The position numbers and the translations under genes are program-made. DNA of 64,000 nt. Source: Microbacterium halimionae. GTDB lineage: Bacteria > Actinomycetota > Actinomycetes > Actinomycetales > Microbacteriaceae. Below the pieces are notes generated by a model. It did no database searches. It saw only the letters and a program-made list of their open reading frames with translations, and was not told the origin of the DNA. Location of the stretch: assembly GCF_011761265.1 (NCBI RefSeq), contig NZ_JAAOZB010000002.1:310001-374000 (forward strand). Reading direction: 5' to 3'. Positions 34,901 to 52,125 of the stretch are shown one piece after another (position 1 is the stretch's first letter; the number at the start of each line of letters is the position of its first letter).

Positions 34901-35500
34901 AAGTCGATCAAGGTCAAAGTGACCGGGTCGCAATCGGGCTATCCAACGGTCGCGAAGGTGTCGTCATCGACGAAACTCGTCTACCGTGCCGCCACCCCAA
35001 AAATCTCTGGGACCGCCGTTGTCGGGTCGACCATGACGGTCGTGCCAGGTAAATGGACGACCGGGACGCACTACAGCTACCAGTGGTACGCGAACGGCAG
35101 CCCGCTTAAGAACGCGACGTCGTCGACTCTCAAACTGACGAGAGCGCACGCTGACAAGCAAATCACCGTGCGCGTCATAGGTGGGCTTCGCGGGTACCCA
35201 ACGCTGCCCCGTGTGTCTTCGGCGACGTTGAAGGTAATGACTGCGGGCTCCGTATCCGTTGCCGGAAAGGCCGCGGTCGGATCGACCCTGACTGCGGATC
35301 GCGGCACGTGGGCCAAGGGCACAGTCTTTACCTACCAGTGGTACGCGAACGGTGTTGCCGTCTCGGGTGCGAAGTCGCGCGAATTCACGGTGACCAAGTC
35401 GCACGTCGGCAAACAGTTGGCGGTGCGCGTGACGGGAAAGTTGCCCGGGTATTCGACCATCGCGAAATACAGCGCGAAGACCAAGTCCGTCACGAAGTAG
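32000..35500 (+). CDS. Large secreted modular protein: six CarboxypepD_reg-like and six Ig-like repeats
   Basis: A 1166-residue protein with a signal peptide (FLLRAALTAVVAVALAVSTV, cleavage near PAAA). The start is GTG 32000, or a TTG at 32012 behind GGAGAA. Residues ~45-650 hold six units, each opening with (S/R/T)GTV(T)xxxGxPL and carrying G(A/E)Y-I and GTY-L blocks: the carboxypeptidase-regulatory/Cna-B-like fold. Residues ~655-1166 hold six ~80-residue units with TPTVTGTPxLGSTLTAxxGTW, YQWYANG and ITVRVTGSxxGY. The latter are common in actinobacterial exoproteins and bind or space surface domains. There is no LPXTG or membrane anchor, so it is probably released or held by carbohydrate binding. 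Confidence 0.85.
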   Translation: MENRLFGTDAPGISVRFLLRAALTAVVAVALAVSTVQPAAAEVLAAPATSVSGTVTGAEGQPLSGGLVYLMKETAPSWSYTAYAETDANGAYRIEGAAAGTYTLRFFPVNGHVGEWWNNEAADWAAKSFELTAGAQLVGMDAQLSTGASISGTVTDTAGVVVPHATVHLYGMSSTWRWLKTVVADDAGAYSFGVIDPGTYAVKATPLPETRLVDQWWIDPTQSSTKTRFQVSRDQTVTGIDVQLPYGAQIRGTVTDQSGEPLRDAIVALSAPANIEYPKTAPTFSTRTDSEGGYSFDLLKAGEYALDVHAAEGANFLSTSSRGLIVGAGEMIAGKDFALQAGGVVSGTVTGRGGLPVAGARVRLSSKDSGGFIGEAFADENGVYRIEKVVAGSYSLYFSEPASGGMGGPGGNPDHFDQQWRDSPNSSASKYFDVAPGQHLSGMDAALIPKAAISGTVTDADGNLLSADVSLYSVKDGQLTPVIHPVRRIDGQYRINGLSAGTYTLKFAAANYLAQWWGNAREKSHAQTFEVGAGQILTGADAVLELGGSITGTVTQKDGTPVRSGFISVYKVGDDGPELFTNQLTDMDGRYLIGGLADGDYTIRFSSPFSGATFVKEWWKDSQDAEHSSIIRVVEGEASVGIDASLALDSVRVSVPVVSGTAAMGAKLTASVSRTPTSAALAYEWRADGVVIEGATDKFLTLQAEEVGKKITVRVTGSDPRYLTGAAVSEATPVVAAAKLRAETPWMSGSPTTGGTLTAHADYWTSGTTFTYEWFANGVVIAGATSASMVVKSTHAGKMISVRVTGSKPGYSSVRLASPLSSAVYLARTPTVTGTPILGSTLTANSGTWTAGSALKYQWYAAGSAIKGATSSKLKLTSAHAGKEITVRVTGSLTGYLTTARTSAPTAKTATVATPTISGAAATGVPLTAKPGKWTTHTSFTYRWYANGEAIAGATASTFTPTSAQAGKSIKVKVTGSQSGYPTVAKVSSSTKLVYRAATPKISGTAVVGSTMTVVPGKWTTGTHYSYQWYANGSPLKNATSSTLKLTRAHADKQITVRVIGGLRGYPTLPRVSSATLKVMTAGSVSVAGKAAVGSTLTADRGTWAKGTVFTYQWYANGVAVSGAKSREFTVTKSHVGKQLAVRVTGKLPGYSTIAKYSAKTKSVTK

Positions 35501-35545
35501 GTCGCGTGCATGGCCGGGCCGAGGCATCCGTATTCTTTGCTGTCG

Positions 35546-36265
35546 TCACTTCACCTGCAGCGCGCGGATCATGTCTTTGAGCTCAGCTACTTCGCCGCGC
35601 AGCTCGTCTACTTGAGTCGATGTGGCCGCCGTCGTCTTGTTTGCGTCGTCTGAAACCTTCTCGACAATCCACGAGGCGAGCGTCGCTGTCACCACACCGA
35701 TAAGCGCAATTCCGCCGACCATGAGGCCTACGGCAACGATGCGCCCGGTGACTGTGACCGGAAAATAGTCGCCGTAGCCGACAGTTGTGATCGTGACGAA
35801 TGCCCACCACACGGCGTCGCCGAGGCTCTGAATCGGGCCGCCGTTGCCTCGCTCGGCATCGAGCACCGCGAGCCCCGCAACGACGATGGTGAGCGCGGTC
35901 GCCCCCACCGTGTAGATCATCACCTTGCCACGCAGCACGTTGCCTGCTCCGCGCTGAACGATCGCGAGGATGGTGAGAAATCGCATGAGACGCAGCGGAC
36001 GCAGAAGGGGAAGAGCAACGATCGCGAGGTCGAGGAGGTGGTGGTAAAACCACTTCCACCTGTTTTCAGTAATGACGAGGCGAACGACATAGTCGATGGC
36101 GAAAATGCCCCACGTCACCCAGATCGTCACCTCTGTGGCGAGCCTCACGGTATCCGTCGCCGTAACGAGAATCTGCACCGCGTATGCGATGAGAAACAGC
36201 ACGGCCGCACCCATCAGTGGCCATTCGGCAGCTTTATCCCAACGCTCGAGCCGTTTACCGTACAT
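35546..36265 (-). CDS. Voltage-gated-like potassium channel
   Basis: A 239-residue ion-transport protein. Membrane helices S1-S4 occupy about residues 15-110, with a modest arginine run in LLRPLRLMRFL for S4. The pore loop TITTVGYGD is followed by S6 (IVAVGLMVGGIALIGVVTATL). The C-terminal 40 residues form a coiled coil (VDELRGEVAELKDMIRALQ) that should hold the tetramer together. It faces away from the HNH gene at 36446. The same pair recurs at 46496-48508, where this gene is internally deleted. Confidence 0.9.
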   Translation of the reverse strand: MYGKRLERWDKAAEWPLMGAAVLFLIAYAVQILVTATDTVRLATEVTIWVTWGIFAIDYVVRLVITENRWKWFYHHLLDLAIVALPLLRPLRLMRFLTILAIVQRGAGNVLRGKVMIYTVGATALTIVVAGLAVLDAERGNGGPIQSLGDAVWWAFVTITTVGYGDYFPVTVTGRIVAVGLMVGGIALIGVVTATLASWIVEKVSDDANKTTAATSTQVDELRGEVAELKDMIRALQVK

Positions 36266-36389
36266 GCGCTCTCTGCTCCGATCAGTCGCTTTCTTCGCTA
36301 CCTAGGTATACCGGCTTGTGTTGAGGTGTGAGATTTCGTGGTCATCTTCTTCTCCACAAATTTCTTTTGAGGAAGTTATCCACAGCGGG

Positions 36390-37740
36390 CCTTTTTGGGC
36401 TGCTTTCGGGTGGTCAATGTCGGAGGTATATTCGATACTTGAGTCATGTCAGAGAACGAAACCGAGCAACAAGAAGCAGAGGCCTACGAGCTGTGTGCGT
36501 CTGTCGCGACGTTGATTTCGTTCGACCAGCAAGCCGCACGCAGTCAGGCCGCGGGGGCCGCAGTTCTTGCAAACATGGGGCGAATCGCACGTGCGCAAAT
36601 GGAGCGCATGACATCGCGTGATTCACGTGATCGTGAGATTCCGATGCGGGCGGTCGCGGCAGAAGTCGGAGCGGCACGGCGAATGTCAGACCGCACTGCG
36701 CAAACCCGCATCGATGACGCGATGGAAGTCACCGAGCACTATCCCGAGACGTTCGCATCGTGGAGCGCGGGTCGGATATCCGAACGGCATGTGCAAGACA
36801 TCTTGCGAGCAGGGGCGAACCTCACGGATGCCGCAGCCAAAGCCCGATATGACCGGGATGTGGTGGCCGTCGCAGAAGCCGAGACCCCGGGCCGGTTGCG
36901 AGGGCTTGCTGCCGCTTTGGCGGAGAAAGCGCAGCCGCGAACGCTCGAGGAACGCTTCGAAGACGCGAATGCGACGCGTACAGTGCGACTGTTTGATCTT
37001 GCTGATGGGATGAGTTCGATCAACGCCATACTCCCGTCGGTGCAGGCTCATGGGATTTTCAACCGGTTGACGCAGCAAGCCCGGGCGTTGAAGGATTTTC
37101 GGGCTGGGCGATCGGACTACGGCACGCGCGAACATGAGCAACCCGTGGATGATCCGCGAACGACGGATCAGATTCGCGCCGACCTGTTCTCCGACATGTT
37201 GCTCACTTCGGTTCCGAGCCTTGACTCGCTCGCGGGGGATGACTGCGGTGGGCTTGGCGCGATCAAAGCGATTGTGCAGGTCACGGTGCCTGCGACGACT
37301 CTTGCAGGCACTTCCTCAACACCCGCGGACCTGTCTGGGCTCAGCCTGGTCGATCCCGAAAGCGCACGGCGGCTCGCCGGAACTGCACCGGGCTGGGATC
37401 GCGTGTTCACCCGACCGGTCACGGGAACCGTGGTCGCCGTTGATCGATACCGACCGAGTGATCAACTGAAGCGACAGCTTCGAGCCCGCGATCAGCACTG
37501 CCGGTTCGTGGGATGCCGCATGCCCACCCATCGTTGCGATATTGATCACACGGTGGATGCTGCCCTCGGCGGTCCGACGCATCAGCAGAACTTGGCGCAT
37601 CTGTGCCGAAGGCATCACAGCTTGAAGCACGCGAGTCGTTGGACCGTGAAACAAGTCGACGACGGTGTGCTCGAGTGGACATCACCAACCGGGCGAAGTT
37701 ACACCGACAAGCCACCCGGGGTCGCATTCGAACCAGACCT
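36390..37740 (+). repeat. Long direct repeat, copy 1 (HNH gene and leader)
   Basis: The segment from about 36390, including the leader (gatacttgagtcatgtcaga), to about 37740 recurs at about 47035-48395 in the same orientation. The last ~290 bp of the two are nearly identical even at silent sites, while the first part of the coding region differs clearly. Together with the adjacent channel genes the copies bracket the sugar operon. Confidence 0.85.
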
Positions 37741-37801
37741 GCCAGATCAACCAGACCTGCCAGATCAACCAGACCTGCCAGATCCGCCTCCGCCGTTCTA
37801 G
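36446..37801 (+). CDS. DUF222 HNH endonuclease family protein, copy 1
   Basis: The 451-residue protein has an N-terminal DUF222 domain (residues ~10-320, with YPETFASWSAGRISERHVQ). A C-terminal HNH nuclease motif follows, CRFVGCRMPTHRCDIDHT ... HQQNLAHLCRRHHSLKH, with a CxxxC/CxxHH zinc set. These proteins are abundant and multi-copy in actinobacteria; their biological role is unsettled, and a selfish or mobile nature has been suggested. The tail carries three tandem PDLPDQ-type hexapeptides, from a short DNA repeat at about 37735-37790. The start ATG overlaps nothing. It shares its leader and most of its sequence with the copy at 47093. Confidence 0.88.
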   Translation: MSENETEQQEAEAYELCASVATLISFDQQAARSQAAGAAVLANMGRIARAQMERMTSRDSRDREIPMRAVAAEVGAARRMSDRTAQTRIDDAMEVTEHYPETFASWSAGRISERHVQDILRAGANLTDAAAKARYDRDVVAVAEAETPGRLRGLAAALAEKAQPRTLEERFEDANATRTVRLFDLADGMSSINAILPSVQAHGIFNRLTQQARALKDFRAGRSDYGTREHEQPVDDPRTTDQIRADLFSDMLLTSVPSLDSLAGDDCGGLGAIKAIVQVTVPATTLAGTSSTPADLSGLSLVDPESARRLAGTAPGWDRVFTRPVTGTVVAVDRYRPSDQLKRQLRARDQHCRFVGCRMPTHRCDIDHTVDAALGGPTHQQNLAHLCRRHHSLKHASRWTVKQVDDGVLEWTSPTGRSYTDKPPGVAFEPDLPDQPDLPDQPDLPDPPPPF

Positions 37802-38003
37802 CCACTCGGCTGGGGCCCGGCCGCCTCAATCGTTAGAACGCAGAAGCATCACGGCCAGTTGCAAGAGCTACGCCGTGCCCCGAATCGCAGAGCCGCCGCG
37901 CACCGCTGAACGGATCGGCGTCATCCCAGCGACTCAACAAGATCGCACGCACGCCAGAACCACACATCGGACCCACGAGTTCGCCGGCGTCTCGACCGGA
38001 GCC

Positions 38004-38963
38004 TCACTGCTGATGCGCCGCTGTCCACGCCCAGCTCACCGCGGCGCTCTCGGTGGGGTCCATCGAAGCGCGATCGACCTCGATGATCGTCCAGCCGTCC
38101 CAGTCGTCTGGGAGAGCCGAGATGATGCCGTCGAGATCGAGCTGGCCAAGACCAGGCTCGAGGAAGATTCCAGCATCCGTCGCTGCGCGGTAGGGCGTTG
38201 GCGTGTTGCGGCTTTGACCGGCGATCGACATGTTGAGGTCCTTGAGGTGAAGGTCCACCAGCCGCGACGCGTGCCGTTCGATCATCATGGCCGGATCGAT
38301 CCCGGCCCACGCGAGATGTCCCACGTCAAACGAAGCACCAAGGAGAGAGTCAGGAATCGCCGCAAGCGTACGCTCGATCTCCTCCTCCGTCTCGATCCAG
38401 GTACCGATGTGGTTGTGGAGTCCGGCGTGAATGCCTTCGCTGCGAAGTACCTCGGCGGCCTCGCCAAGAATGTCGATGACCCGGTCGAGGCGCCCGGAGT
38501 CGAAAGCTGCCCCGACGCCCACGGCCTGCTGAGTGCGCACCGTGCTAGGCGCCCACGACACTTCGGGGGCCAAAAAGATTGTGGACAGGCCGAAGAAGTT
38601 TGACTCCTCCGCCTTTCGACGTACGCCATCGAACCAGTGCACCCATTCAGCGCTACCCGTGCGTAGTGTGATGCCGTGGTCTTCGGGGAGCCACACATTC
38701 GCATATCCCGGGGCAACGGTGAGGCCCGCGTCGTCGATCATGCGTCGATAATCTTGCAACGTCTGTGTGTTGAGTACTTCCATCATCGTTGCTGTGAAGC
38801 CAGCATCTCGAATGTGCTTGAGCACGCCCGGATAGTCCGACCGAAAAGCTGGATCGGCGAAGAGCCAGAGGTCCTCGCTCGATGGGTCGCTCGGGTCGGA
38901 CTTCAGATTGATCCACTGGATCGCATTGAGAGCGACCCGTTCCCTTTTCAGCGCACTACTCAT
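38004..38963 (-). CDS. Sugar phosphate isomerase/epimerase-like TIM barrel
   Basis: A 319-residue AP-endonuclease-2/xylose-isomerase-like TIM barrel starting at ATG 38961-38963. Typical metal-site segments are visible: GLHNHIGTW, GASFDVGHLAWAG, RLVDLHLKD and FLEPGLGQLDLDGI, giving the His/Glu/Asp set for a divalent ion. The start overlaps the stop of the oxidase gene (ATGA), so the two are translationally coupled. Family members include IolE, 3-keto-sugar hydratases or epimerases, and the large subunit of C-glycoside deglycosidases. With an oxidase partner, acting on a 3-keto-sugar is plausible. It is the last gene of the operon. Confidence 0.8.
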   Translation of the reverse strand: MSSALKRERVALNAIQWINLKSDPSDPSSEDLWLFADPAFRSDYPGVLKHIRDAGFTATMMEVLNTQTLQDYRRMIDDAGLTVAPGYANVWLPEDHGITLRTGSAEWVHWFDGVRRKAEESNFFGLSTIFLAPEVSWAPSTVRTQQAVGVGAAFDSGRLDRVIDILGEAAEVLRSEGIHAGLHNHIGTWIETEEEIERTLAAIPDSLLGASFDVGHLAWAGIDPAMMIERHASRLVDLHLKDLNMSIAGQSRNTPTPYRAATDAGIFLEPGLGQLDLDGIISALPDDWDGWTIIEVDRASMDPTESAAVSWAWTAAHQQ

Positions 38964-40528
38964 TTGATGCCACCCATCATGTCGTCGGCGAAGACTTCGC
39001 CGGAGATTGTCGTCGTGATCTGCCCGCAAATCGCACGCGCGGCGCATACCGCTGTCACTGTTCCTGTTAGCGTCGCGTTCGCAACGACTGCCGTCGGAAT
39101 AACGCCGTTGCCGGCGAGGTAGAGGTTCTCGAACCCCCACACACGGCCATCTGGATCGCACACCGACGTGCCATCGTCGACGGCACCGGCACGCACCGTT
39201 CCGGTGAGGTGCAACGACGAACCCGCAGGCAACACCGCCAGTTCAGTGTCGATGTCTTGAGTGCCAAACTCCGCCGCGAGGCGCTGCAGCAGAGCCGTCG
39301 CCTGCTCGATCAGCGCCCGATCAGTATCGGAATAGTCGAACTCGAAGTGGATGCGCGGCATCCCGGCGAGGTCGCTCTCAGTGCTCGAAAATGACAGCCG
39401 GTTCGTGGCGCGAGATTCGACGGGCGCGTACAGCGAGATGCCCACGGAATATGCCAGCGGGTTGCTGTTTTCGTCAACGTAGGTCGTGTTCATGACCTGG
39501 CCGTGGAACGGCTGCGCGGGTGCGTTTTGAGGAATCCAGATCGAGTCGGTGCAAAACTCACCTTGCCGCACGAGTGGCAAATCGGCGAGCGAGAGACCGA
39601 ACCTCTCGGTGTCCATAAGAACGCGACCCGTGATAAACGCGTGTTCGTTGAGATACCGGCCGAGGGCCGGGGGACGGATGCCGGAGGCAAACAGCAGTTG
39701 CGGCGTCCGAAGAGTGTCAGCACAGACCAGCACTGCGTCGGCGAACAGTCCTGATTCCGCCCCCGACGCGACATCACGCACCCGTACACCGCGCACCCGA
39801 GTGCCGTCTTCCGAAACTATCAACTCGAGCGCCAGGGTGCCCGTCATGAGCGTGAACGCGGCATCGGGTTCGCCCGCAATCGGAGGGAAAATGGTGCCGG
39901 GTCCTGTGCGCGGAAGCGGGCCCGCAGGCCGTTGCGCAACGGCCATTGGCATGGGCTGCGGCTCCCGGCCGTTCGGCGCTGTTCCGGCGAGCGATTTGCG
40001 CAGCACGTCGATGACGACACGGCCCGCGTTCGTCGGGCCCAGCGGCGAAGAATTGACCCCGAGCACCCGCCGCGCCGTATCGATATCTGCATTCCATTGC
40101 TCGGCATCCCCAAAATCGAAGACTTCTTCTCCGGCTGGCCACGGTGTGGCGGCAGTCCAGTGAACGCCCATTCCACCCGCATTCCACGACAGCGCGGATG
40201 CCGGCATCGCCTCTGCCTCTTCGCCGAAAGCCAGGCTGTGGAACATGCCGGGCGTGAGCTCGCGCACATCGTCGACAACGTCACGCACGACCTTGGCACC
40301 CGTGTACATACCCTGGATGCCTGTTGCTACCCGCTCGTTGTACGCGCGCCACAATGAGGGGTCAGCGACGTCGTGCAAGTGCAGACCCGGCGTATCGCCG
40401 ATGGGATCGCCACCGTCGACCATAAGAATCCCTGCAGACGGGCGGGCTTCGCGGATGAGGCGCGCAGCGGTGGCCCCCATGATGCCGCTTCCGACTATGA
40501 GCACGTCAACGGTCTCAGTCTCAATCAT
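38960..40528 (-). CDS. GMC oxidoreductase, pyranose oxidase/C-glycoside 3-oxidase-like
   Basis: A 522-residue FAD enzyme: dinucleotide fold VLIVGSGIMGATAARLI near residue 10, WNAGGMGVHWTAATPWP, and the C-terminal substrate domain. The likely catalytic His lies in SLHLTGTVRAG (about residue 438) and the Asn in VVANATLTGTV. This replaces the HHxGT...NPT pattern of fungal pyranose oxidase. Soluble actinobacterial relatives such as the described CarA enzymes oxidise the C3 hydroxyl of sugars in glycosides. Coupling to a TIM-barrel protein and an ABC sugar importer supports a glycoside-catabolic role. No signal peptide, so it acts in the cytoplasm after uptake. Confidence 0.8.
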   Translation of the reverse strand: MIETETVDVLIVGSGIMGATAARLIREARPSAGILMVDGGDPIGDTPGLHLHDVADPSLWRAYNERVATGIQGMYTGAKVVRDVVDDVRELTPGMFHSLAFGEEAEAMPASALSWNAGGMGVHWTAATPWPAGEEVFDFGDAEQWNADIDTARRVLGVNSSPLGPTNAGRVVIDVLRKSLAGTAPNGREPQPMPMAVAQRPAGPLPRTGPGTIFPPIAGEPDAAFTLMTGTLALELIVSEDGTRVRGVRVRDVASGAESGLFADAVLVCADTLRTPQLLFASGIRPPALGRYLNEHAFITGRVLMDTERFGLSLADLPLVRQGEFCTDSIWIPQNAPAQPFHGQVMNTTYVDENSNPLAYSVGISLYAPVESRATNRLSFSSTESDLAGMPRIHFEFDYSDTDRALIEQATALLQRLAAEFGTQDIDTELAVLPAGSSLHLTGTVRAGAVDDGTSVCDPDGRVWGFENLYLAGNGVIPTAVVANATLTGTVTAVCAARAICGQITTTISGEVFADDMMGGIK

Positions 40529-40578
40529 GCGCTTCTCCTGGTGATGTATATCGAAAAATAGATGGCAGTCGTGGTGCC

Positions 40579-41718
40579 CTAGACATCGAGAACGAGCGGG
40601 CCGAAGAGCTCCGAGTCCATGCGGTCGAGCACGAATTTCAGCGCGCCGATGAGCGGTCCGTCGGCACCGAGAGTGCTTGCGCGCAGCTCGATATCGGGCG
40701 TCTGCGCGCGCCTCATTGCTTCTCGAACGCGCGGTAGGAGTACGTCGGCACCGCGCTCAAGGCCCCCACCCAACACGATCAGCGACGGCGCAAGAGTCCA
40801 CGAGAGCGTCGTGAGAACACTGCCGATGTACCCGACGAACGCATCGACTTCGCTGAGTGCACCGGGGTCTCCCGCGCGCGCGAGCCGGTAGACCTCTTCG
40901 GCTGCCGCGCGCTCCTCCGCCACTGGGGAGGTGAGGAATGCAACGGGGCGCTTGTCGAAGAGCCCGGCATCGAGCGGCTGTGCCTCCACAATCTCACCCG
41001 CGGCGCCTTGAAAACCGCGATGGACCACGCCGCGGATCAGCACTCCGAGCCCCGATCTGCTTCCCAGAATCGACCAGACCACGTCTTCATGGTCGCCCGC
41101 GCTACCTCGCCAGCTTTCGGCGAGTGCGCCGAGATTCGCATCATTATCGGCAAACCATGCGACCGGCACGCGGATTCCGAGTTCTGTGGGGAGGTTGATG
41201 TTCACCCACGCGTCCGCATGCACGAGCCGGTGAACAACACCGTGCTCATCGATGGCGCCACCAGCTGCCATGGCTCCGGCGCGCAGTTGCTCGATCGTTC
41301 CGCCGGCATCGGCGAGGGCTTCATGCACAAGCTCCGCCACGACATCTAGCGTGCCGTGCGGGTCGAAGTAGTCAGGCAGGATGCGGTGAGCCCGACCGAG
41401 AATGTGCCCTCGCACGTCGGCGACGACAACCGTGGCATCGAGCGTTGAGATGCGTGCCGCGGCGAGGAGCGAGTGGTCGGCGCGCAGCTCGAAACGCCGC
41501 GGTGGGCGACCGGCACCGCCAGACAGAGGGAGACGTTCCAACTCCAACACCCACCCGGCATCAACGAGAGCCGAAAGGATAAGTTCCACCGTCCGTCGGG
41601 AGAGCCCCGTTTGTTCCGCGAGCGTTGACATCCCGACGGGCTCGGAAGCTGTCGCGAGGGCGCGGAGCGCAACCGAAGTGTTGAGGCGCCGAAGCGCGCG
41701 AGGATCAAGACCGGGCAC
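40579..41718 (-). CDS. ROK-family transcriptional regulator
   Basis: 379 residues from a GTG start. The N-terminal winged helix (TLAEQTGLSRRTVELILSAL, wing GGAGRPPRRFEL) is followed by a ROK sugar-kinase-like domain (VVVADVRGHILG, AWFADNDANLGALAE, VHRGFQGAAGEIVEAQ, LIVLGGGLERGADVL). The cysteine zinc motif of many ROK proteins is absent. It lies inside the sugar operon between the esterase and the oxidase genes. This suggests it represses its own operon and responds to the imported sugar or a product; that is an inference from position. Confidence 0.9.
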   Translation of the reverse strand: MPGLDPRALRRLNTSVALRALATASEPVGMSTLAEQTGLSRRTVELILSALVDAGWVLELERLPLSGGAGRPPRRFELRADHSLLAAARISTLDATVVVADVRGHILGRAHRILPDYFDPHGTLDVVAELVHEALADAGGTIEQLRAGAMAAGGAIDEHGVVHRLVHADAWVNINLPTELGIRVPVAWFADNDANLGALAESWRGSAGDHEDVVWSILGSRSGLGVLIRGVVHRGFQGAAGEIVEAQPLDAGLFDKRPVAFLTSPVAEERAAAEEVYRLARAGDPGALSEVDAFVGYIGSVLTTLSWTLAPSLIVLGGGLERGADVLLPRVREAMRRAQTPDIELRASTLGADGPLIGALKFVLDRMDSELFGPLVLDV

Positions 41719-41769
41719 TGGTGCACATTTCTCGTAGGCGGTTGATTGTTGGCGACTGTCTGTGAGCCG

Positions 41770-43161
41770 TCACGTGGGAGTCACCGGGTCGTACACGCCG
41801 AGGATGTCCGTCGTGAATGTGCTGCCGACGCGCCCGTAAACGCGGCTCGCCGCGCCCAAAGCACCGTTTGCCTGCGGCCATGCTGATTCGTTCCCGCGCA
41901 CGAATGCGAGGAGATCAGCATGCATGACGTCGGCAAGTTCGGTCGGTGCCGACTCGCCGAGCGCGTCAACGACGCCGGGAGCGTCGAGCGCATCGAAGAA
42001 GAATGGCAAGTCTGTGCAGTGAGTCGCACCGCCGAGGAGCGGGTTTGGCCATTCGAAGCTGTACGACCAGGTGCCGCCATCGGCATTGGTGCGTGCCGCG
42101 GCGCACCGGGGCACGGCCGACCGAAACAGGAAATCGCTGACGCGCCTTCCCGACGCTCGAGCTTCAGCGCGCTCGGCGTCGCTGAGCTGCCGACGGTCGG
42201 GGTCTTCGGCAGTTGGCCCGCCGTCGAATTCATCCAGCGCGCTGCCGACAAGGAGCGGGAGGTGCAGGTTGTGTTGAGCGAGACCGGTTGCAATGTCAGT
42301 GGGCAACAGATCGTCGCCGACGACTGGGCTCAGCGTCAGTGGGGGAGTGTTTTCGCGGATACGCAGGTCGACAATCGCCTGCTGCACGTCACCGTCACTG
42401 CGGGCGCTAAAACCCTCGAACGTGGGTGGAATGCCGAGGAAATTTGCAATGCGCGAGACGGAACCCATGACGGTATTTCGTTCGAGCGCGAACGTGCCGC
42501 CCGAGATGCTGACGACGCGATGCATAAGCCCGACCGTGGCAGGCGATGACATCAGTGCGAGAGCAATACCGCCGCCGGCAGACTGGCCCGCGAGCGTCAC
42601 CTGCCCGGGATCACCGCCGAATGCGGCGATATTTTTCTGAATCCATTGCAGTGCGAGAATCACATCGCGAAGTCCGAGGTTCGTCGGCACATCGTCGAGC
42701 GGAGCAAAGCCCTCGACGGCGAGCCGGTACGAAACTGAGACAAGAACGACACCTTCACGTGCGAACCCGGAACCGTCGTACCACGGGCTGGCGGCGGATC
42801 CACCGGCAAAGGCGCCGCCGTGCACCCATACGAGCACGGGAGCGCTGCCCGCTGCGCCTGTGGCCGGCGCGAAGATGTTGATGCTCAAAACGTCGTCGCC
42901 CGGGATCGTCGGCTCCGGCACAGTGGTTGTCGTGAAAAGCGGAACCCGCTGCGGCGTCGCGCCATAAGCGCTCGCATAGAACGGCTCCGTGAAGTCGGCG
43001 CGAGGCACCGGTAGCGCAAAGCGCCGTTCGCCGTATGGTGCCTCGGCGTACGGAATCCCGAGGAATGTGTTGACGCCGTGCACTGCCCGGCCCACGATAG
43101 GTCCAGCCGGTGCGTCGACGCTCACTGGGACTTCGAGGGGATCTGGGACGGCAGACTGCAT
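41770..43161 (-). CDS. Type B carboxylesterase
   Basis: 463 residues from the ATG at 43159-43161, which overlaps the TAA of the permease gene; a longer upstream frame runs through that gene and is rejected. The carboxylesterase type B fold is clear: VNTFLGIPYAEAPYGERRFA, oxyanion WVHGGAFAGGSAASPWYDG, nucleophile LAGQSAGGGIALALMSSP. The family's acidic and histidine residues should lie in LLVGSALDEFDGG and NPLLGGATHCTDLPFF. No signal peptide. In this operon it probably removes acyl groups from an imported glycoside before or after C3 oxidation. Confidence 0.88.
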   Translation of the reverse strand: MQSAVPDPLEVPVSVDAPAGPIVGRAVHGVNTFLGIPYAEAPYGERRFALPVPRADFTEPFYASAYGATPQRVPLFTTTTVPEPTIPGDDVLSINIFAPATGAAGSAPVLVWVHGGAFAGGSAASPWYDGSGFAREGVVLVSVSYRLAVEGFAPLDDVPTNLGLRDVILALQWIQKNIAAFGGDPGQVTLAGQSAGGGIALALMSSPATVGLMHRVVSISGGTFALERNTVMGSVSRIANFLGIPPTFEGFSARSDGDVQQAIVDLRIRENTPPLTLSPVVGDDLLPTDIATGLAQHNLHLPLLVGSALDEFDGGPTAEDPDRRQLSDAERAEARASGRRVSDFLFRSAVPRCAAARTNADGGTWSYSFEWPNPLLGGATHCTDLPFFFDALDAPGVVDALGESAPTELADVMHADLLAFVRGNESAWPQANGALGAASRVYGRVGSTFTTDILGVYDPVTPT

Positions 43162-44057
43162 TACTTGACTCCTGTCGCTGCGATGCCCTGCACGAAGTAA
43201 CGCTGCAAGCTGAGGAACAACGCCAGTACAGGCAACATCACGATAACGGCGCCCGCCAGCACAATGCCATAGTCGGTGACGTTCGACGACGCCTGGCTCG
43301 TCGTCGCGAGGCCCACAGGCAGCGTGTACGTGCTTTTGCTTTGCGCCACCACGAGCGGCCAGATGAAGTTGTTCCACGAAGCGAGGAAAGACATGATCGT
43401 CACGGTCGCGACCGCTGGTCCAGCCAGCGGCATGAATATTCGGAAGAAGATCCGCCACTCGCCCGCACCATCGATTCGTGCCGCCTCGATGAGTTCGTCG
43501 GGGATCGACAGCGCGTACTGCCGCATGATGAAGATCGAGAGGGGTAGTGCAACTGACGGAAGCGCGATGCCCAGCAGGGTATCTGCGAGACCGATGTTGA
43601 CAGTCACGATGAACTGCGGCACAAAGACGGCCGTATACGGAACCATCAAGCCCATCATGACGGCGCCGAACGCGAGCTTTTTCCCAGCGAAGTCGAACTT
43701 GGCGAGTGCGTAGCCTGCCGCCGATGCGGCGACGATATTTCCGCCGACCACTATCGCTGCGACCACGATGCTGTTGCTGAGATAACCGCCGAATCCTTCA
43801 CTGCTGAAAAGGCGCACAAAGTTGTCGAATGTCACCTGGCTCGGGAACCATGCGCCCGGATCCGCCTGCATATCGTCGAGGGTGCGAAGCGATCCGCTCA
43901 CCACCCAGAGAAAAGGCAGCAGGGTCAGTGCGGCGCCAACGACCAGCGCCGCGTAGAGCAGAGCAACCGGCAGGCGACGTTTGCGCGGTCGACGCTCATC
44001 GGGCGTGACCGTCAACTCGGGCATGTGTTCTGTGACCAGTTCAGCGATGGCGGTCAT
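43161..44057 (-). CDS. Carbohydrate ABC transporter permease (MalG type)
   Basis: 298 residues with six predicted membrane helices. The EAA-loop signature (IPDELIEAARIDGAGEWRIFFRIFMPLAGP) marks the second permease subunit of CUT1 sugar importers. The first helix is ALLYAALVVGAALTLLPFLW. The start overlaps the preceding permease gene by 4 bp. The matching ATPase is not in the cluster, so a shared MsiK-like ATPase encoded elsewhere probably drives the transporter, as is common in actinobacteria. Confidence 0.93.
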   Translation of the reverse strand: MTAIAELVTEHMPELTVTPDERRPRKRRLPVALLYAALVVGAALTLLPFLWVVSGSLRTLDDMQADPGAWFPSQVTFDNFVRLFSSEGFGGYLSNSIVVAAIVVGGNIVAASAAGYALAKFDFAGKKLAFGAVMMGLMVPYTAVFVPQFIVTVNIGLADTLLGIALPSVALPLSIFIMRQYALSIPDELIEAARIDGAGEWRIFFRIFMPLAGPAVATVTIMSFLASWNNFIWPLVVAQSKSTYTLPVGLATTSQASSNVTDYGIVLAGAVIVMLPVLALFLSLQRYFVQGIAATGVK

Positions 44058-44974
44058 GCGCGGGGCCTCAGCAGCCGAAACTGGGCGATTGCAAAGATTG
44101 CAACGAGTGTGAGGATGACGAAGGATGCCGCTGATGACACACCGTAGTTACCGAATCCGAACTGCTGATACGTGTACAGAGCGACCGACTCGGTGGAGTT
44201 GAGCGGACCGCCGCCGGTAAGAAGATACGGCTCGTCGAACACCTGAAGGTAAAACGTCGAGAGCAAGATCGAGACGAGCAGGATCGTCGGCAGTAGCAGC
44301 GGCAAGCTGATCGACCAAAGTCGTCGCAACCAGCCCGCACCGTCGATCGAGGCTGCCTCATACACATCTTCTGGAACGGCCTGCAGGCCCGCGAGGAAGA
44401 GTAACATCGCTGTGCCGAAGTTCCGCCAGATGCCGAGGAGGATCACGACGGGCATTGCGAGGTTTTCGTCTCCGAGCCAATTTGGGCCAGCAAGTCCAAT
44501 GTTCGATAGCAGGTTGTTGACAGTGCCGTCTTGGTTGAACGCGTACTGCCAGATCAACGCAATGGCCACGATGTTCGTGACAACCGGGGCATAGAAGATT
44601 GTGCGGAACGGGCCGCGGAATCGACGGATGCCGTTGTTCAGGGCGAGCGCGAGGCTGAATCCGACGAGCATCGTGAGGGGAACGCCGACCACAACGAAGA
44701 TCAACGTGTTGAGGATCGAGCGCAAAAAAATCTTGTTACCGAAAAGGCTGATGTAGTTGTCGATGCCGATGAAATCGACATTGAACGGATTGCGGAGATC
44801 GGTGCCCTGCAAATCGGTGAGGCTGAAAGCGAGTGACGAGATCGTCGGAACGACCGTGAACAAAAGGAAGATCACGGCGAACGGCGCGAGAAAGACCCAC
44901 GCAACGACCGTGTGCCGGGCGCGCCGGGGGCGCTGCGCGAAGCGCGGCACCCTCGGCGCGAATGAGCTTGTCAT
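44054..44974 (-). CDS. Carbohydrate ABC transporter permease (MalF type)
   Basis: 306 residues with six membrane helices. The first helix follows a basic N-terminus (RFAQRPRRARHTVVAWVFLA), and the EAA loop reads VPEDVYEAASIDGAGWLRRLWSISLP. It is the MalF-type partner of the permease just downstream. It starts 8 bp after the stop of the binding-protein gene, so the two are co-transcribed. Substrate specificity cannot be read from the sequence. Confidence 0.93.
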   Translation of the reverse strand: MTSSFAPRVPRFAQRPRRARHTVVAWVFLAPFAVIFLLFTVVPTISSLAFSLTDLQGTDLRNPFNVDFIGIDNYISLFGNKIFLRSILNTLIFVVVGVPLTMLVGFSLALALNNGIRRFRGPFRTIFYAPVVTNIVAIALIWQYAFNQDGTVNNLLSNIGLAGPNWLGDENLAMPVVILLGIWRNFGTAMLLFLAGLQAVPEDVYEAASIDGAGWLRRLWSISLPLLLPTILLVSILLSTFYLQVFDEPYLLTGGGPLNSTESVALYTYQQFGFGNYGVSSAASFVILTLVAIFAIAQFRLLRPRA

Positions 44975-44982
44975 CGTGTTCG

Positions 44983-46287
44983 CTACTTCGTGCCCGTGCC
45001 GAGGTTTTCGGCGAAGGATTGGATATTGGCTGCGGCATCTTCGGGAGATTCGCCGCCTCTCACGACAGCTTCGAATTCGCTTCCGATTTGCGTCGATACC
45101 TGAGTCCAGGTCGTCGACTGCGGGAAGGAGCGGGTGTTCTGCAACTGGTCGAAGAAGGCATCGAGAAGTGGCTGATCCGAGATCGACGGGTCATCCCACG
45201 CGGACTGCACGGCGGGCAGAGAACCGAATGCTTTGTATTGCTCGACCTGGGTCTCGGGGTTGGAGAGGTAGCGAATGACCTTCCAGGCCGCATCCGAGTT
45301 CTCGCTGTCGCTCAGGACACCCCAGCTTCCGCCACCAACTGTGCCTGCGTTGTTTGCGGAGCCCTCCGGGAGTGGCGCAGTTGCAACGTGATCGGTAAGC
45401 CAGTCGTCGTCCGTGGCGCTTGTTATCTGGTTGAGCGCCCATGGGCCGGTCACCATCGCGCCGGTCTTTCCGTCGACGAAGTACGGGATCGAATCGAGGA
45501 ACATTGGTCCGTCTGGTGAGGCTACGTCCTCAGAGAAAAACGATGCGTTGTACTCAATAGCCTCGACGACCTCGGGGGTGTCGAAGGTCCACTCGCTGCC
45601 ATCCGCGCTCAGAATCTCGCCACCGTTTTGCCAGGTGTAGAGCGCAATGGACTGCCCGTTGTAGCCGTCCCAGCCGACATCCGTTCCGAGGCCCTTTTCT
45701 GCGCCGCCGGCCTCAAGCCCCTTGAGGAAAGGAACCATGTCATCTTGCGTCTTGGGTGCCGTCGCACCACCGGTTTCCGCGAAATCTTTGCGGTAGACGA
45801 GCGTGCGTGTGAAGGTGTACCACGGCACCGAGTACGCAGTGCCGTCGACGACGCCAGCATCCCACGCACCTGGGAAGAAGTCGGTGGATGTGGCGACACC
45901 GTCCGGCACCGCTTCGAAGATTGCAGGGTCAAGGAACTGCGCTTGCGCTTCGGTGTAGAGCTGGGCGATATCGGGCGTCGTTCCCGCCGCGATGGCCGCT
46001 TGGAGTTTGGTCGTGTACTCGTCCGACGGAATCAGGGTTACTTCGACGTCGAGGTCTGGATTTGCTTCCTCAAACGGGGCGATGACGTCTTCAATGACGG
46101 TGGCGTCGCCGTCGGGTGCCCAGAGTGTGACTGTGCCCGTGGCGGGTGAGTCGTCGATAGCGGCGCCGGCTGTGGCCGTGGCCTCATCGGCCGAGCGGCC
46201 GCAACCGGCGAGAAGCAGGGTGGCTGTTGTGACGACCGCGATGCTGGCGGTGAGCCGAGCAGAGCGAGAGCGGATGATGTTGGACAC
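44983..46287 (-). CDS. Extracellular sugar-binding lipoprotein of the ABC transporter
   Basis: 434 residues from the GTG at 46285-46287, preceded by CAGGAG; an ATG at 46380 would add an unlikely proline-rich tail. The lipoprotein signal is SIAVVTTATLLLAGC. The mature part follows the family 1 solute-binding pattern (VTLWAPDGDATVIEDVIAPF, DIAQLYTEAQAQFLDP, MVTGPWALNQITSA, GGGSWGVLSDSENSDAAWKV). It is the promoter-proximal gene of the seven-gene sugar operon running to 38004. Many aromatic residues near the hinge (DGYNGQSIALYTWQNGG) suit sugar stacking. Confidence 0.92.
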   Translation of the reverse strand: MSNIIRSRSARLTASIAVVTTATLLLAGCGRSADEATATAGAAIDDSPATGTVTLWAPDGDATVIEDVIAPFEEANPDLDVEVTLIPSDEYTTKLQAAIAAGTTPDIAQLYTEAQAQFLDPAIFEAVPDGVATSTDFFPGAWDAGVVDGTAYSVPWYTFTRTLVYRKDFAETGGATAPKTQDDMVPFLKGLEAGGAEKGLGTDVGWDGYNGQSIALYTWQNGGEILSADGSEWTFDTPEVVEAIEYNASFFSEDVASPDGPMFLDSIPYFVDGKTGAMVTGPWALNQITSATDDDWLTDHVATAPLPEGSANNAGTVGGGSWGVLSDSENSDAAWKVIRYLSNPETQVEQYKAFGSLPAVQSAWDDPSISDQPLLDAFFDQLQNTRSFPQSTTWTQVSTQIGSEFEAVVRGGESPEDAAANIQSFAENLGTGTK

Positions 46288-46418
46288 GCAGGACTCCTGG
46301 GGGTGAGGGGTGGAGCGGTGAGTGGAACAGGACGGTGAAGTGGGCCCGGGTTTTTCGGGGGATGTAGCGAAATAGGACAACTGGGCTTGAAGATGAAGCT
46401 AAAGAGGGGGCATTACGC

Positions 46419-46436
46419 ATTTGTTACGGCGCAAAT
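46419..46436. promoter_or_regulatory. Possible operator of the sugar operon
   Basis: The 18-bp site runs ATTTG-TTACGGCG-CAAAT, an imperfect inverted repeat with 5-bp arms. It lies about 130 bp upstream of the binding-protein start in the otherwise empty stretch 46288-46495. The region is AT-rich compared with its surroundings. A ROK or other regulator could bind here, but the match is short and may be chance. Confidence 0.25.
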
Positions 46437-46495
46437 AAGAAGAATTTCGGCGCTTGTAGCGTTATTATCCGCGACCGTCGTTCAGCACTAGCCGT

Positions 46496-46911
46496 CTACT
46501 TCGCGCGGAGGGCGCGAATCATCTCTTTTAGCTCTGAGACTTCCTGCTGAAGCACATCTGCCTGGGTCGATTTCGCAGCGGGCGAGTCCTTTGAATCAAT
46601 CGAGACCTTCTCGACGATCCACGAGGCGAAGGCGCGCCACGCCCCGTCAGCAAACGTCTGAATGCTGCGGCAGTGGTTTCGTTCAGGGTCACGTGCAGCC
46701 AGACCCGCTCCGTAATGAGGAGGCGTACGACGTAGTCCACGGCGAATGTGAGCCATGTTGCCCAGAGCACTCCATCGGTGGGAAGGGCGACGGCCCTTCT
46801 TGGCTCGGTCAAAATCTGCACTGCGGCGTAGTCAACGAGAAAGAGCACCGCCGCGCCCATCAGCGGCCATTCGGCAGCTTTATCCCAACGATCGATCCGT
46901 CTTCGGTTCAT
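46496..46911 (-). pseudogene. Potassium channel remnant with internal deletion
   Basis: The N-terminus (IDRWDKAAEWPLMGAAVLFL ... FAVDYVVRLLITERVW) and the C-terminus (FASWIVEKVSIDSKDSPAAK ... EVSELKEMIRALRAK) match the intact channel at 35546. Everything between them, including S3-S4, the pore with TVGYGD and most of S6, is gone and replaced by a short unrelated joint. The two ends are in different frames. This is a dead copy of the channel, beside the second HNH gene. Confidence 0.85.
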
Positions 46912-47034
46912 GCGTATTCGTTCCCTTTTACTGTCGCTTTTCCGCTCACCTGCATGCACCCGGTCATGATTTCGTGCTCGATGTCGTCGCATCCTCTGCT
47001 CCCCAAAATGCTCTTGAGAAAGTTGCCCACATGG

Positions 47035-48395
47035 GGGCTTTTTAGGCTGTTTTGGGATGGTCGATGTCGGAGGTATGTTCGATACTTGAGTCATGTCAGA
47101 GAACACGACCACACAACACTCACCCGGGCAACGCACCCGGGCTGAGATTGTGTTGTCGGCAGAATCTCGGCTCGCGCAGATCGCGCAGCTGCAGGCAGGG
47201 TTGGCAGAAGATTTCGCCGAAGGCGGGCGTATGGCACTCGCTGAGATGCGTCTCATTCCGTCGCGTGAGTCGCGGGAACGAGAGATTCCGATGCGATCCA
47301 TGGCTGCAGAATTCGCGGCGGCATTGCGGATGTCGGATCGCACGACGCAGAATCGCATCGACGAGGCGATGGACGTCACCGAGCACTATCCCGAGACGTT
47401 CGCATCGTGGAGCGCAGGTCGCATCTCGGAACGACATGTGCAAGAAATACTGCGGGCAGGCATAAACCTCACGGATGCCACAGCCAAGGCCCGATACGAC
47501 CAAGAAGTGGTAGAGGTCGCTGAGGCCGAGACACCGGGACGGTTGCGAGGGTTTGCTGCAGCTCTGGCGGAGAAGGCGCAGCCGCGGACGCTCGAGGAAC
47601 GCTTCGAAGACGCGAACGCGACCCGCACGGTGCGACTGTTCGACCTGGCGGATGGGATGAGTTCGATCCAAGCGGTGTTGCCCTCAGTGCAGGCACATGG
47701 GATCTTCAACCGGCTCACGCAGCAAGCCCGAGCGTTGAAAGACTTCCGGGCGGGGCGATCGGATTACGGCACGAAGCTCCGCGCCGAGGATGAGCCTGTG
47801 GTGGATGATCGGCGGACGACGGACCAAATCCGGGCCGACCTGTTCTCCGACATGCTGCTCACGTCGGTTCCGAGCCTCGATCCGCTCGCGGGTGACGACT
47901 GTGGTGGGCTCGGGGCGATCCGGGCGATCGTGCAGGTCACGGTCCCCGCCACGACGCTCGCCGGCACGTCGTCGACACCCGCGGATCTGTCGGGGCTGAG
48001 TCTGGTTGACCCCGAGAGTGCACGACGGCTCGCGGGTACCGCGCCGCGGTGGGATCGGGTGTTCACGCGGCCCGTGACAGGCACCGTGGTTGCCGTTGAT
48101 CGGTACCGACCGAGTGATCAACTAAAGCGACAGCTTCGAGCGCGAGATCAGCACTGCCGGTTCGTGGGATGCCGCATGCCCACGCATCGTTGCGATATTG
48201 ATCACACGGTGGATGCTGCCCTCGGGGGTCCGACGCATCAGCAGAACTTGGCGCATCTGTGCCGAAGGCATCACAGCTTGAAGCACGCGAGTCGTTGGAC
48301 GGTGAAACAAGTCGACGACGGTGTGCTCGAGTGGACATCACCAACCGGGCGAAGGTATACCGACAAACCGCCAGGGGTGGCATTCGAACCAGACC
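47035..48395 (+). repeat. Long direct repeat, copy 2 (HNH gene and leader)
   Basis: Partner of the repeat at about 36390-37740, in the same orientation, about 10.6 kb away. The leader region around tgtcggaggta and the 3' part of the HNH gene are nearly identical between copies. The N-terminal ~90 codons differ much more, suggesting gene conversion of the HNH end. Confidence 0.85.
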
Positions 48396-48508
48396 CCGAT
48401 TCTCGCGTCCAGTCCGATTCTCGGGCCCACGCTGACGCCGAGAGCTGTTCGGCCGCGAGGGAGCAGTACGTCTCCGCGTCAAGTTCAGACGAGCCGGCAC
48501 CGTTCTGA
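47093..48508 (+). CDS. DUF222 HNH endonuclease family protein, copy 2
   Basis: 471 residues, paralogue of the protein at 36446. The DUF222 part (YPETFASWSAGRISERHVQ, TPGRLRGFAAALAEKAQPRT) and the HNH part (CRFVGCRMPTHRCDIDHT ... LCRRHHSLKHASRWTV) are conserved. The first ~70 residues differ (AQIAQLQAGLAEDFAEGGRM here). The tail lacks the PDLPDQ repeats and ends in a polar stretch (SSDEPAPF). It is probably an intact gene. Its leader is shared with copy 1, so both may be expressed alike. Confidence 0.88.
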   Translation: MSENTTTQHSPGQRTRAEIVLSAESRLAQIAQLQAGLAEDFAEGGRMALAEMRLIPSRESREREIPMRSMAAEFAAALRMSDRTTQNRIDEAMDVTEHYPETFASWSAGRISERHVQEILRAGINLTDATAKARYDQEVVEVAEAETPGRLRGFAAALAEKAQPRTLEERFEDANATRTVRLFDLADGMSSIQAVLPSVQAHGIFNRLTQQARALKDFRAGRSDYGTKLRAEDEPVVDDRRTTDQIRADLFSDMLLTSVPSLDPLAGDDCGGLGAIRAIVQVTVPATTLAGTSSTPADLSGLSLVDPESARRLAGTAPRWDRVFTRPVTGTVVAVDRYRPSDQLKRQLRARDQHCRFVGCRMPTHRCDIDHTVDAALGGPTHQQNLAHLCRRHHSLKHASRWTVKQVDDGVLEWTSPTGRRYTDKPPGVAFEPDPDSRVQSDSRAHADAESCSAAREQYVSASSSDEPAPF

Positions 48509-48644
48509 CCTTCGCAGGGTCGCCGCACCCACAGCTCGCGTTCCCGCGTTTGAACCGCCCACATGCTGCGGGTACGGGAGAAGATGGAGGGTACGCATTC
48601 GATTCCCGGCCCGCGCCGAACGACTCAGCCCACACGGAGACTTC

Positions 48645-49628
48645 ATGAGCACCGCACCCGCAACCCCATGCCGAGACTGGGTCATGTGGGCGGCCGCCAT
48701 TGTCGCAGCGGCTGGAGTTGTCGTCGTGCTGTGGGCGACCATCACCGAATGGGGCGGTGTCGTTCATGGAAACCCCGCGTACGCAGTGCTGCTCGGCGTG
48801 ACGCTCATCGCGTGCGTCGCCGTGCTGCTCTTCGCGTTCCTGCCGCGCAAAAACCATGAGCCCACACGGGGCCGTTGGCGAAGCGGGTGGCGCCGCGTCG
48901 TCCGCATCATTCTGGTCGTTCTCGCCATCGGGTTCATCGCGCTCATCGCATGGCTTCGCCCGCACACTGCAGAAGAACCGGCCCTCGCCGCAATGAAATC
49001 GGATGCCGCTGTCACCATCACCGAGTCGCCCACCGAGATCGTCATGACCCCCACCGGCGACCAGAGCACCACCGGGGTGTTCTTCCAGCCGGGAGCCCTC
49101 GTCGACGCCCGTGCTTACGCCGCTGTTCTTCGCCCACTCGCCGAAGCCGGCCACACTGTCGTCATCCCGAAGCAACCCCTCGGTATCGCATTCCTGTCGC
49201 TGGGGGCATTCGATGCGGCTCGGCCGCAGCATCCTGACGTTAGAGGCTGGGTCGTCGGCGGCCACTCTCTCGGCGGCACAGTCGCAGCGATCCAAGCCGA
49301 GGGTGCCGAAAGCGACACCACGGCGCCCGCCACCGGCCTGCTGTTCTTCGCCTCGTACCCCGCAACCGACATGAGTACGTCGCTCACGATTCCCGTCGAA
49401 TCGATCTCTGGCACTCAAGACGGCCTTGCCACGCCCGAGAAGATCGACGCATCGCGCACAGAGCTCCCTGCCGACACCACATTCACGATCATCGACGGGG
49501 CATCGCACGCGCAGTTCGGCTCCTACGGGCCACAATCGGGCGACAACACCCCCGAGATCAGCAACGACGATGCGCGCACGCAGATTTCTGCAGCATCCCT
49601 CGCCTTCGTCGACTCGATCGCTGACTGA
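48645..49628 (+). CDS. Membrane-anchored alpha/beta hydrolase
   Basis: 327 residues from the ATG at 48645 (CACGGAGA ribosome binding site). Three N-terminal hydrophobic helices (about WVMWAAAIVAAAGVVVVLWA, VLLGVTLIACVAVLLFAF, IILVVLAIGFIALIAW) precede an extracytoplasmic-looking hydrolase domain. The nucleophile elbow is VVGGHSLGGTVAAIQA (GxSxG), and a likely terminal histidine lies in IIDGASHAQFGSYGPQ. It resembles alpha/beta hydrolase family 5 proteins of actinobacteria; the substrate is unknown. A longer frame from 48321 overlaps the HNH gene and is rejected. Confidence 0.8.
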   Translation: MSTAPATPCRDWVMWAAAIVAAAGVVVVLWATITEWGGVVHGNPAYAVLLGVTLIACVAVLLFAFLPRKNHEPTRGRWRSGWRRVVRIILVVLAIGFIALIAWLRPHTAEEPALAAMKSDAAVTITESPTEIVMTPTGDQSTTGVFFQPGALVDARAYAAVLRPLAEAGHTVVIPKQPLGIAFLSLGAFDAARPQHPDVRGWVVGGHSLGGTVAAIQAEGAESDTTAPATGLLFFASYPATDMSTSLTIPVESISGTQDGLATPEKIDASRTELPADTTFTIIDGASHAQFGSYGPQSGDNTPEISNDDARTQISAASLAFVDSIAD

Positions 49629-49670
49629 CATCTCCGCCCGCGAGCTCGCGATGTCGGAGAGAATCGAAGT

Positions 49671-51371: not shown

Positions 51372-51381
51372 CAGGCCAGCC

Positions 51382-52125
51382 ATGAGCGATATAGAAATGG
51401 CACGCATCGCCGGCGGCTCGGTGATGCTGCACGATGCACGCCGCAAGATCCGTTGGAGCGTCGACCTCGAGCCGTTCGAAATCGGCGTCTTTGCGGTCAC
51501 TGAAGAACAGCTCGCCGAAATCATCGGCGAAACGGCACACCACCCGCGACGCCCCGCGGTCGACGTGCCGTGGCTGCGCGCAATCCGCTTTTGCAACGCC
51601 GCATCGGAGTGGGAAGGCCTCGACTCCGCGTACTCGTTCGATGGTGAAGACATCACGTGGCACGTCGATTCAGACGGATACCGCCTCCCTACCGAAGCCG
51701 AGTGGGAATTTGCCTGCCGAGCCGGATCCAACGGCCCACACTACGGGCCCCTCACCGAAGTGGCATGGACCAGCGCCGACGGTGTGAGCGCGCCGCAAAA
51801 CGTCGGTGGAAAGCTCCCTAACCTCAACGGACTGTTCGACACTCTCGGCAACGCATGGGAGTGGTGCTGGGACTTTCTCGACCCCGCACGATACGGCGAC
51901 TACCGAGTCTTCCGTGGTGGCGGATTCGCCGACGACGCCTGGAACGTTCGCGCCTCAACGCGTCGAGGCGGTGCCCCGAGAATGCACCACGACGATGTCG
52001 GCTTTCGAGTCGCACGCGGCGGATTCGACACCACGAACGAAGCTCAGGGATGGTCGGCCCGCGCTGATCGCGAACGAGCCGACACCGATGCTCCACTGCC
52101 GACGGGCTGGACGCCGCGGCGTTGA
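51382..52125 (+). CDS. FGE/SUMF1-like domain protein
   Basis: 247 residues with the formylglycine-generating-enzyme fold: GGSVMLHD, FEIGVFAVTEEQLAE, GYRLPTEAEWEFACRAG, GNAWEWCWDF, RVFRGGGFADDAWNVRAS and DDVGFRVARG. The copper-binding cysteine pair that activates sulfatases should stand just before the last block, but that region reads RRGGAPRMHHDDVGF with no cysteine. It is therefore more likely a structural or ligand-binding relative than a true FGE. It is probably co-transcribed with the ABC1 kinase gene. Confidence 0.82.
   Translation: MSDIEMARIAGGSVMLHDARRKIRWSVDLEPFEIGVFAVTEEQLAEIIGETAHHPRRPAVDVPWLRAIRFCNAASEWEGLDSAYSFDGEDITWHVDSDGYRLPTEAEWEFACRAGSNGPHYGPLTEVAWTSADGVSAPQNVGGKLPNLNGLFDTLGNAWEWCWDFLDPARYGDYRVFRGGGFADDAWNVRASTRRGGAPRMHHDDVGFRVARGGFDTTNEAQGWSARADRERADTDAPLPTGWTPRR

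Follow-up and report, generated by a model that had tools for sequence, protein, structure and literature searches.

In the literature, DUF222 is linked with REP13E12 and HNH and is listed among repetitive elements (PMC10589994), REP13E12 is counted among the most often converted loci in Mycobacterium and considered a putative prophage attachment site (PMC13061034), and repeat prophage insertions into rep13e12 are described (PMC12803068). Several 13E12 genes of M. tuberculosis are reported to be LexA-controlled (PMC5005354), 13E12 HNH genes of this species are proposed to belong to a LexA-controlled mismatch-repair system (PMC4181829), and phage homing endonuclease gene (HEG) islands are presented as operons bracketed by nucleases (PMC10448857). 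Here we examine two DUF222-HNH genes, HNH_A and HNH_B, which bracket a seven-gene operon in a 64,000-nucleotide stretch of Microbacterium halimionae DNA (hereafter the window), located in contig 2 of a 2.94-Mb genome (G000).

HNH_A and HNH_B both belong to a DUF222-HNH gene family of the 13E12 type, several copies of which are scattered through the genome. The explanation we favor, to which we assign a probability of about 0.6, is that recombination among the copies of this repeat family shapes the locus, and that the nuclease may stimulate it. It is supported by the number of copies in the family, conversion tracts, a single HNH gene at the corresponding site of the closest relative compared, breaks in synteny at repeat edges, and purifying selection on the copies.

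The DUF222-HNH family and exchange among its copies

HNH_A (36446-37801; HNH domain C-terminal) and HNH_B (47093-48508) both lie on the + strand and form a direct repeat with a start-to-start distance of 10,647 bp. DUF222 (PF02720) is recognized in both above the curated cut-off (98 and 96 bits, respectively; cut-off 24.4), and an HNH domain is detected in both using PHROGs (E 5e-7 and 2e-7), the Pfam HNH match of HNH_A being below cut-off (E 0.02). Within G000, 18 DUF222 matches correspond to 17 loci (one gene is represented by two partial matches), and 15 matches are found in G089, the closest relative of G000 among the genomes compared. The domain is present in 78 of 79 sampled genomes of the genus, each of the 78 having between 2 and 22 matches. 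Close copies (>75% identical to HNH_A) number 11 in G000 and 10 in G089, and nine pairs of these occupy matching places in the two genomes. The repeat extends from approximately -108 to approximately +1300 relative to the gene start, beyond which the flanks of different copies are unrelated. Its conserved upstream block lies at 36338-36445 for copy A (about -108 to -1, + strand), where it holds the SOS-box-like element TCGGAGGTATATTCGA, and at 46989-47092 for copy B (+ strand), where collinearity with G089 starts.

Because the ratio of non-synonymous to synonymous divergence (dN/dS) of the copies averages 0.09-0.12 (range 0.05-0.30), the HNH copies are kept as proteins by purifying selection. 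One close copy in G000 (L071:5836-7188, contig 1, at ~634 kb) is frameshifted, while the other ten are open.

Exchange among the copies is visible at several levels. From about +246 on, positional orthologues in G000 and G089 are no more alike than paralogues within a genome, whereas the flanks keep the orthology signal. Mean synonymous divergence (dS) amounts to 0.73 among 8 positional orthologues, compared with 0.69 among 45 pairs within G000 and 0.65 among 45 pairs within G089 (L071 was left out of the dS and conversion comparisons, along with its pair for dS). Significant shared tracts were found by a GENECONV-type permutation test in 11 of 45 G000 pairs and 25 of 45 G089 pairs. The tract common to HNH_A (37490-37698, + strand) and HNH_B (48146-48354) is identical at 206 of 209 bases and significant in the same test (global P<0.001), and shows that sequence has been exchanged between the two genes, in support of the recombination invoked by the original prediction for this locus. 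That prediction had described the 3' ends of the HNH genes as almost identical, which applies to this tract; it stops ~100 bp before the HNH_A stop codon, however, and the extreme 3' ends differ. The near-identical stretch is one of many gene-conversion tracts, and hence an ordinary event in the family.

A further bracketed arrangement occurs in contig 1 of G000 (1,098-1,126 kb), where three HNH copies in the same orientation (L063, L065, and L069) lie ~13-14 kb apart; L065 and L063 have in common a 115-site conversion run.

The 15.1-kb block and synteny breaks at repeat edges

G089 is collinear with window positions 46989-64000 at 90% identity and again over 30164-31865, and has 1.09 kb of other DNA where the window has a block of 15.1 kb (31866-46988). 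The site in G089 contains a single HNH gene, the orthologue of HNH_B (85.7% amino acid identity), with one Lipoprotein_Ltp gene upstream, and neither a channel nor the operon. The right border of the difference between the two genomes is the start of the HNH repeat, at -104 from the HNH_B gene. The empty site with a single channel/HNH pair that the original prediction had suggested seeking in relatives is therefore found only in part, since an HNH gene without the operon is present, but the channel and the CarboxypepD_reg gene of the block are absent as well and another gene lies in their place. These two absences, together with the different gene (Lipoprotein_Ltp), rule out the G089 site as a simple pop-out product of recombination between copies A and B. 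No transposase or integrase was found among the block's 11 genes and gene remnants scanned with Pfam, and the block ends carry no inverted repeats, the sole inverted pair (32 nt, 72%) being located elsewhere. At the next-best abh relatives (59-68%; 10 loci, L051-L060), no HNH or ABC1 match lies within 1.5 kb.

Breaks in synteny were counted as gaps of at least 300 bp, and edges as positions within 300 bp of an HNH gene, over the nine G000/G089 pairs, with gaps taken as independent. The script located 11 gaps in 5.4 kb of edge; the aligned flanks of these loci, 55.6 kb in total, contained 10 (P=4e-7; P=1.7e-8 when gap lengths are included in the comparison length, 77.6 kb), such that break density at repeat edges is approximately 11 times that elsewhere in the same loci. 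A gap is present at 10 of the 18 HNH sides, both by hand count and by script. Control genes, taken from 433 kb, have one at 43 of 490 sides; they were drawn with a crude open reading frame (ORF) caller that missed HNH_B and after exclusion of 15 ORFs at or beside HNH copies (gap at 6 of 30 sides). Several gaps sit at the repeat ends themselves, at -97 to -108 or +1291 to +1322, as recombination within the repeat would leave. Proteins encoded at HNH edges include a pyridine-nucleotide oxidoreductase, a major facilitator superfamily (MFS) transporter, a TetR regulator, and a large Laminin_G_3 protein.

A sequence of events that would account for these observations starts with HNH_B as an old resident at a site that G089 also has. 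The adjoining block of 15.1 kb on its left was either a gain in G000 or else was lost or replaced in G089. With one and the same 1.4-kb sequence present at many places, homologous recombination can end inside the copies; recombination with incoming or ectopic DNA that ends in such a copy would, as the position of the breaks suggests, leave new genes flush with the copy edge. Short tracts are copied between HNH copies, as the sequences show, and this gave rise to the near-identical 3' stretch. The predicted site-binding nuclease may make cuts that stimulate this recombination. Crossing-over between copies A and B could also delete or amplify the operon together with one HNH copy, as the original prediction had proposed; such deletion or amplification is possible but unobserved.

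Several points weigh against recombination among HNH copies as the explanation of the locus. The excess of breaks at HNH edges holds for the G000/G089 species pair only. In G015/G153 there was no excess (2 gaps in 4.2 kb compared with 9 in 55.6 kb, P=0.18, with the two partnerless copies among the nine of G015, L265 and L269, excluded); a hand count for this pair gave 4 of 14 sides where the script gave 2 gaps, two falling inside the gene or beyond 300 bp of its ends. G228/G229 likewise had no excess (0 compared with 1 gap), a pair with almost no gaps and hence no power, for which the script used six pairs; L250, L252, and L254 were not among these, L252 and L254 having collinear partners and L250 lying within a 3.7-kb stretch in place of which G229 has 5.0 kb. 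The donor of the block was not found, the best operon relatives being 65-72% identical when one or two candidates were scored per genome. No outgroup keeps the locus, so that gain in G000 and loss in G089 are indistinguishable, and recombination between HNH copies alone leaves unexplained why a channel adjoins both copies.

Finally, HNH genes may simply occupy tolerant neighborhoods. On this account, which we consider possible but clearly less probable than the one we favor, the copies are host genes involved in repair, defense, or other functions that lie in tolerant spacers where accessory genes collect, and conversion among them is ordinary recombination between passive repeats. The lack of an excess in the two other species pairs agrees with it, as do the abundance of indels throughout (30 gaps of at least 300 bp in the two 200-kb segments), the diversity of the cargo, and the lack of a transposase or integrase among nine proteins scanned. 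What it does not readily accommodate is the concentration of breaks, per base, at repeat edges relative to the remainder of the same loci.

Two further differences between G000 and G089 lie elsewhere in the window. A 6.85-kb stretch (5898-12749) is cleanly missing from G089, where its flanks abut, and represents a second lineage-specific block. The region at 15439-29372 (~13.9 kb) has ~13.8 kb of different DNA at the matching place in G089 and was apparently replaced.

Channels and operon

From left to right, the locus comprises a gene for a CarboxypepD_reg/Ig-like repeat protein in the left part of the block (32000-35500, + strand), channel A (35546-36265, - strand), HNH_A, the operon, a channel B pseudogene (46496-46911, - strand), and HNH_B. 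Channel A is of the K+ channel type, with Ion_trans_2 found by profile search, and channel B keeps approximately residues 1-71 and 196-239 of it, split over two frames. The original prediction of a channel-plus-HNH unit occurring twice in the same orientation with the operon between is thus correct with respect to layout, while the second unit is not intact given that channel B is a pseudogene; its further statement that one channel copy has lost its pore is confirmed, the part between residues ~71 and ~196 of channel A being absent.

The two units are homologous over a stretch that starts at the channel 3' end, spans the intergenic region, and stops shortly before the end of the HNH gene; identity across aligned blocks is 70-84%. 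This continuity of channel and HNH homology would be expected from a recent tandem duplication of the channel/HNH segment, as the wording of the original prediction suggests. However, channels A and B differ by a dS of 0.94 and a dN of 0.28 (115 codons) and HNH_A and HNH_B by a dS of 0.69, compared with 0.26-0.37 for four backbone genes of G000 and G089, and the operon has one full-length match in G000 (two further matches were counted and are unlisted). Recent duplication is accordingly disfavored, and we regard it as very improbable. As synonymous divergence between the channels is ~3 times that between G000 and G089, their sequences indicate that they probably parted well before the split of the two species. 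An old duplication followed by conversion is a possible origin of the channel/HNH pair, and the position of a channel upstream of both HNH copies would fit either such a duplication or the acquisition of related segments via the HNH repeat.

The channel and the HNH gene do not form a unit; the channel is a bystander, because DUF222 lies within 6 kb on either side in only 4 of 80 named channel loci. At two of these four it lies at 3.7 and 4.7 kb, and at the other two within ~0.5 kb, one of which is only a short DUF222 piece at a contig end. No HNH_A-like match was present within 1.5 kb of the channels of G007, G055, G009, and G014, though a DUF222 gene lies ~4.7 kb from that of G009. Among the DUF222 loci of G000, channel homology is restricted to units A and B. 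The best 11 named channel relatives belong to Microbacterium (10) and Microbacteriaceae (1). The 80 channel loci thus do not bear out a conserved channel/HNH unit, and the cassette idea of the original prediction is largely wrong. A further full-length channel gene in G000, 44% identical to channel A, is located in contig 1 (676838-677509; L076:5839-6510).

The seven operon genes (38004-46380, all on the - strand) lie between HNH_A and HNH_B and encode an IolE-like TIM barrel of the sugar-phosphate isomerase/epimerase type (38004-38936), a pyranose oxidase-like GMC oxidoreductase (38960-40528), a ROK-family regulator (40579-41718), a carboxylesterase (41770-43158), two ATP-binding cassette (ABC) permeases (43161-44057 and 44054-44974), and a solute-binding protein (44983-46380). 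The nearest chains to the GMC protein are 8qve (pyranose oxidase), 7dve (6'''-hydroxyparomomycin C oxidase), and 7qf8 (GMC oxidoreductase), and IolE is nearest to the TIM barrel. Because of these two proteins, the operon may serve glycoside oxidation. A search of 366 genomes of the genus, in which the best one or two candidate stretches were scored per genome, identified the operon in six relatives (G077, G125, G171, G055, G038, and G088) at 65-72% DNA identity, and the best match in G089 had an E value of 2.8e-7. In all six relatives the permease adjoins the ROK gene with no carboxylesterase between them, unlike in G000. No HNH match was found beside these six operons within the 1.3-1.5 kb examined past the operon on one side.

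Predicted protein architecture and known systems

A model of HNH_A residues 24-172 (pLDDT, a predicted local confidence score, of 93.7; 27 sequences) was compared with known structures using a second-look structure aligner. The top 12 rows were ParB, Noc, Spo0J, or KorB chains (Z 8.3-5.6; 2.3-4.4 A over 91-103 residues), followed by an unrelated row at Z 5.0. With the whole-protein model (pLDDT 67.7), rows 1-9 were of the same family (Z 8.8 to 7.2, the next being 5.4), and the HNH part matched TagI, Gme HNH, and McrA at Z 5.1 to 4.3. It is important to note that helical domains can reach such Z values by chance, that neither model had a match at E<=0.001 with Foldseek alone, and that a Pfam scan of the ~33-165 part returned no ParB family match up to E 10. 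On the basis of the structure aligner and of the DUF222 stretch aGRISerHv, which resembles ParB, residues ~33-165 of HNH_A are predicted to be ParB/Noc-like, and the protein may be a site-binding nuclease. Conservation across 28 DUF222 proteins is complete at Cys 352, 357, and 387 and at His391, and almost complete at His368 and Asn382. NCBIfam yielded no match for HNH_A or HNH_B, no solved structure matched the HNH_A sequence at E values up to 1, and the PADLOC defense scan gave only a weak Cas11e match for HNH_A (E 0.023).

An element of the type TCGGAGGTAyGTTCGA is nearly invariant upstream of the 21 close copies of G000 and G089 (36420-36435 and 47067-47082 in the window). It is 2-3 mismatches from the mycobacterial SOS box. 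Boxes with at most 2 mismatches were found at 11 of 15 G228/G229 loci, 2 of 6 other G000 loci, and 0 of 18 G015/G153 loci, the background being 154 of 2000 windows. In the lexA promoter region of G000, every site differs from the mycobacterial box at 3 or more positions.

The combination of a predicted ParB/Noc-like domain with an HNH domain raises the idea of homing-type mobile genes, in which the former domain would find a target, HNH would cut, and repair would copy the gene and its cargo, forming a chromosomal counterpart of the HEG islands that bracket operons in phages (PMC10448857). Breaks at repeat edges are in line with it, as are copies that lack a counterpart at the corresponding position in the other genome. 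L069 lies in a 3.6-kb stretch of G000 where G089 has 23 bp, and L107 of G089 has no HNH match in 60 kb of G000 around the matching flank; the junctions are not clean in either case. We nevertheless consider homing unlikely: neither a target site nor a precise empty site was found, nine pairs of copies have kept matching positions in the two species, cleavage is a prediction from the domains, the structural matches may be fortuitous as described above, and the cargo shows no unusual similarity between genomes sharing the operon (65-72% DNA identity). The homing-like role that the original prediction suggested for the HNH nuclease is possible, given the predicted DNA-binding-like and HNH domains and the clustering of breaks at the repeats in one of three species pairs. 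A broader proposal, that DUF222-HNH proteins are ParB-type nucleases cutting their own dispersed copies and thereby driving both gene conversion and the exchange of accessory DNA next to them, with each copy a chromosomal port for gene gain and loss that is possibly damage-induced, is one we advance as speculative and rather unlikely.

Among the papers listed by literature searches, none dealt with DUF222 genes at the borders of gene turnover, none described a ParB-like domain in DUF222, and none had DUF222 as the subject of its title; the one functional proposal encountered was the 13E12 mismatch-repair role (PMC4181829). The family and its gene conversion have already been described in Mycobacterium (REP13E12). 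The association with breakpoints and the domain assignment may be new. If DUF222 genes mark or drive gene turnover, part of genome change in Microbacterium would be explained, and the ParB-like domain, if true, offers a direct test through the DNA site bound.

Recombination among dispersed HNH copies, as favored here, places the locus closest to REP13E12, which shares with it DUF222 with a C-terminal HNH, dispersed copies, gene conversion, and a link with inserted DNA; the present locus differs in belonging to another genus, in having no prophage seen at the site, and in having metabolic or surface-type genes at its edges. A composite transposon would similarly have two direct gene copies flanking cargo, but neither a transposase or integrase among the block genes scanned nor inverted repeats at the ends are present here. 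The predicted fold of HNH_A residues ~33-165 resembles ParB, Noc, and KorB, with the difference that only one domain is present and is joined to an HNH domain. As in phage HEG islands, nuclease genes bracket an operon and sit at exchange boundaries, whereas the present arrangement is chromosomal, involves DUF222-HNH genes of the same family on both sides, and carries cargo that is not highly alike between genomes.

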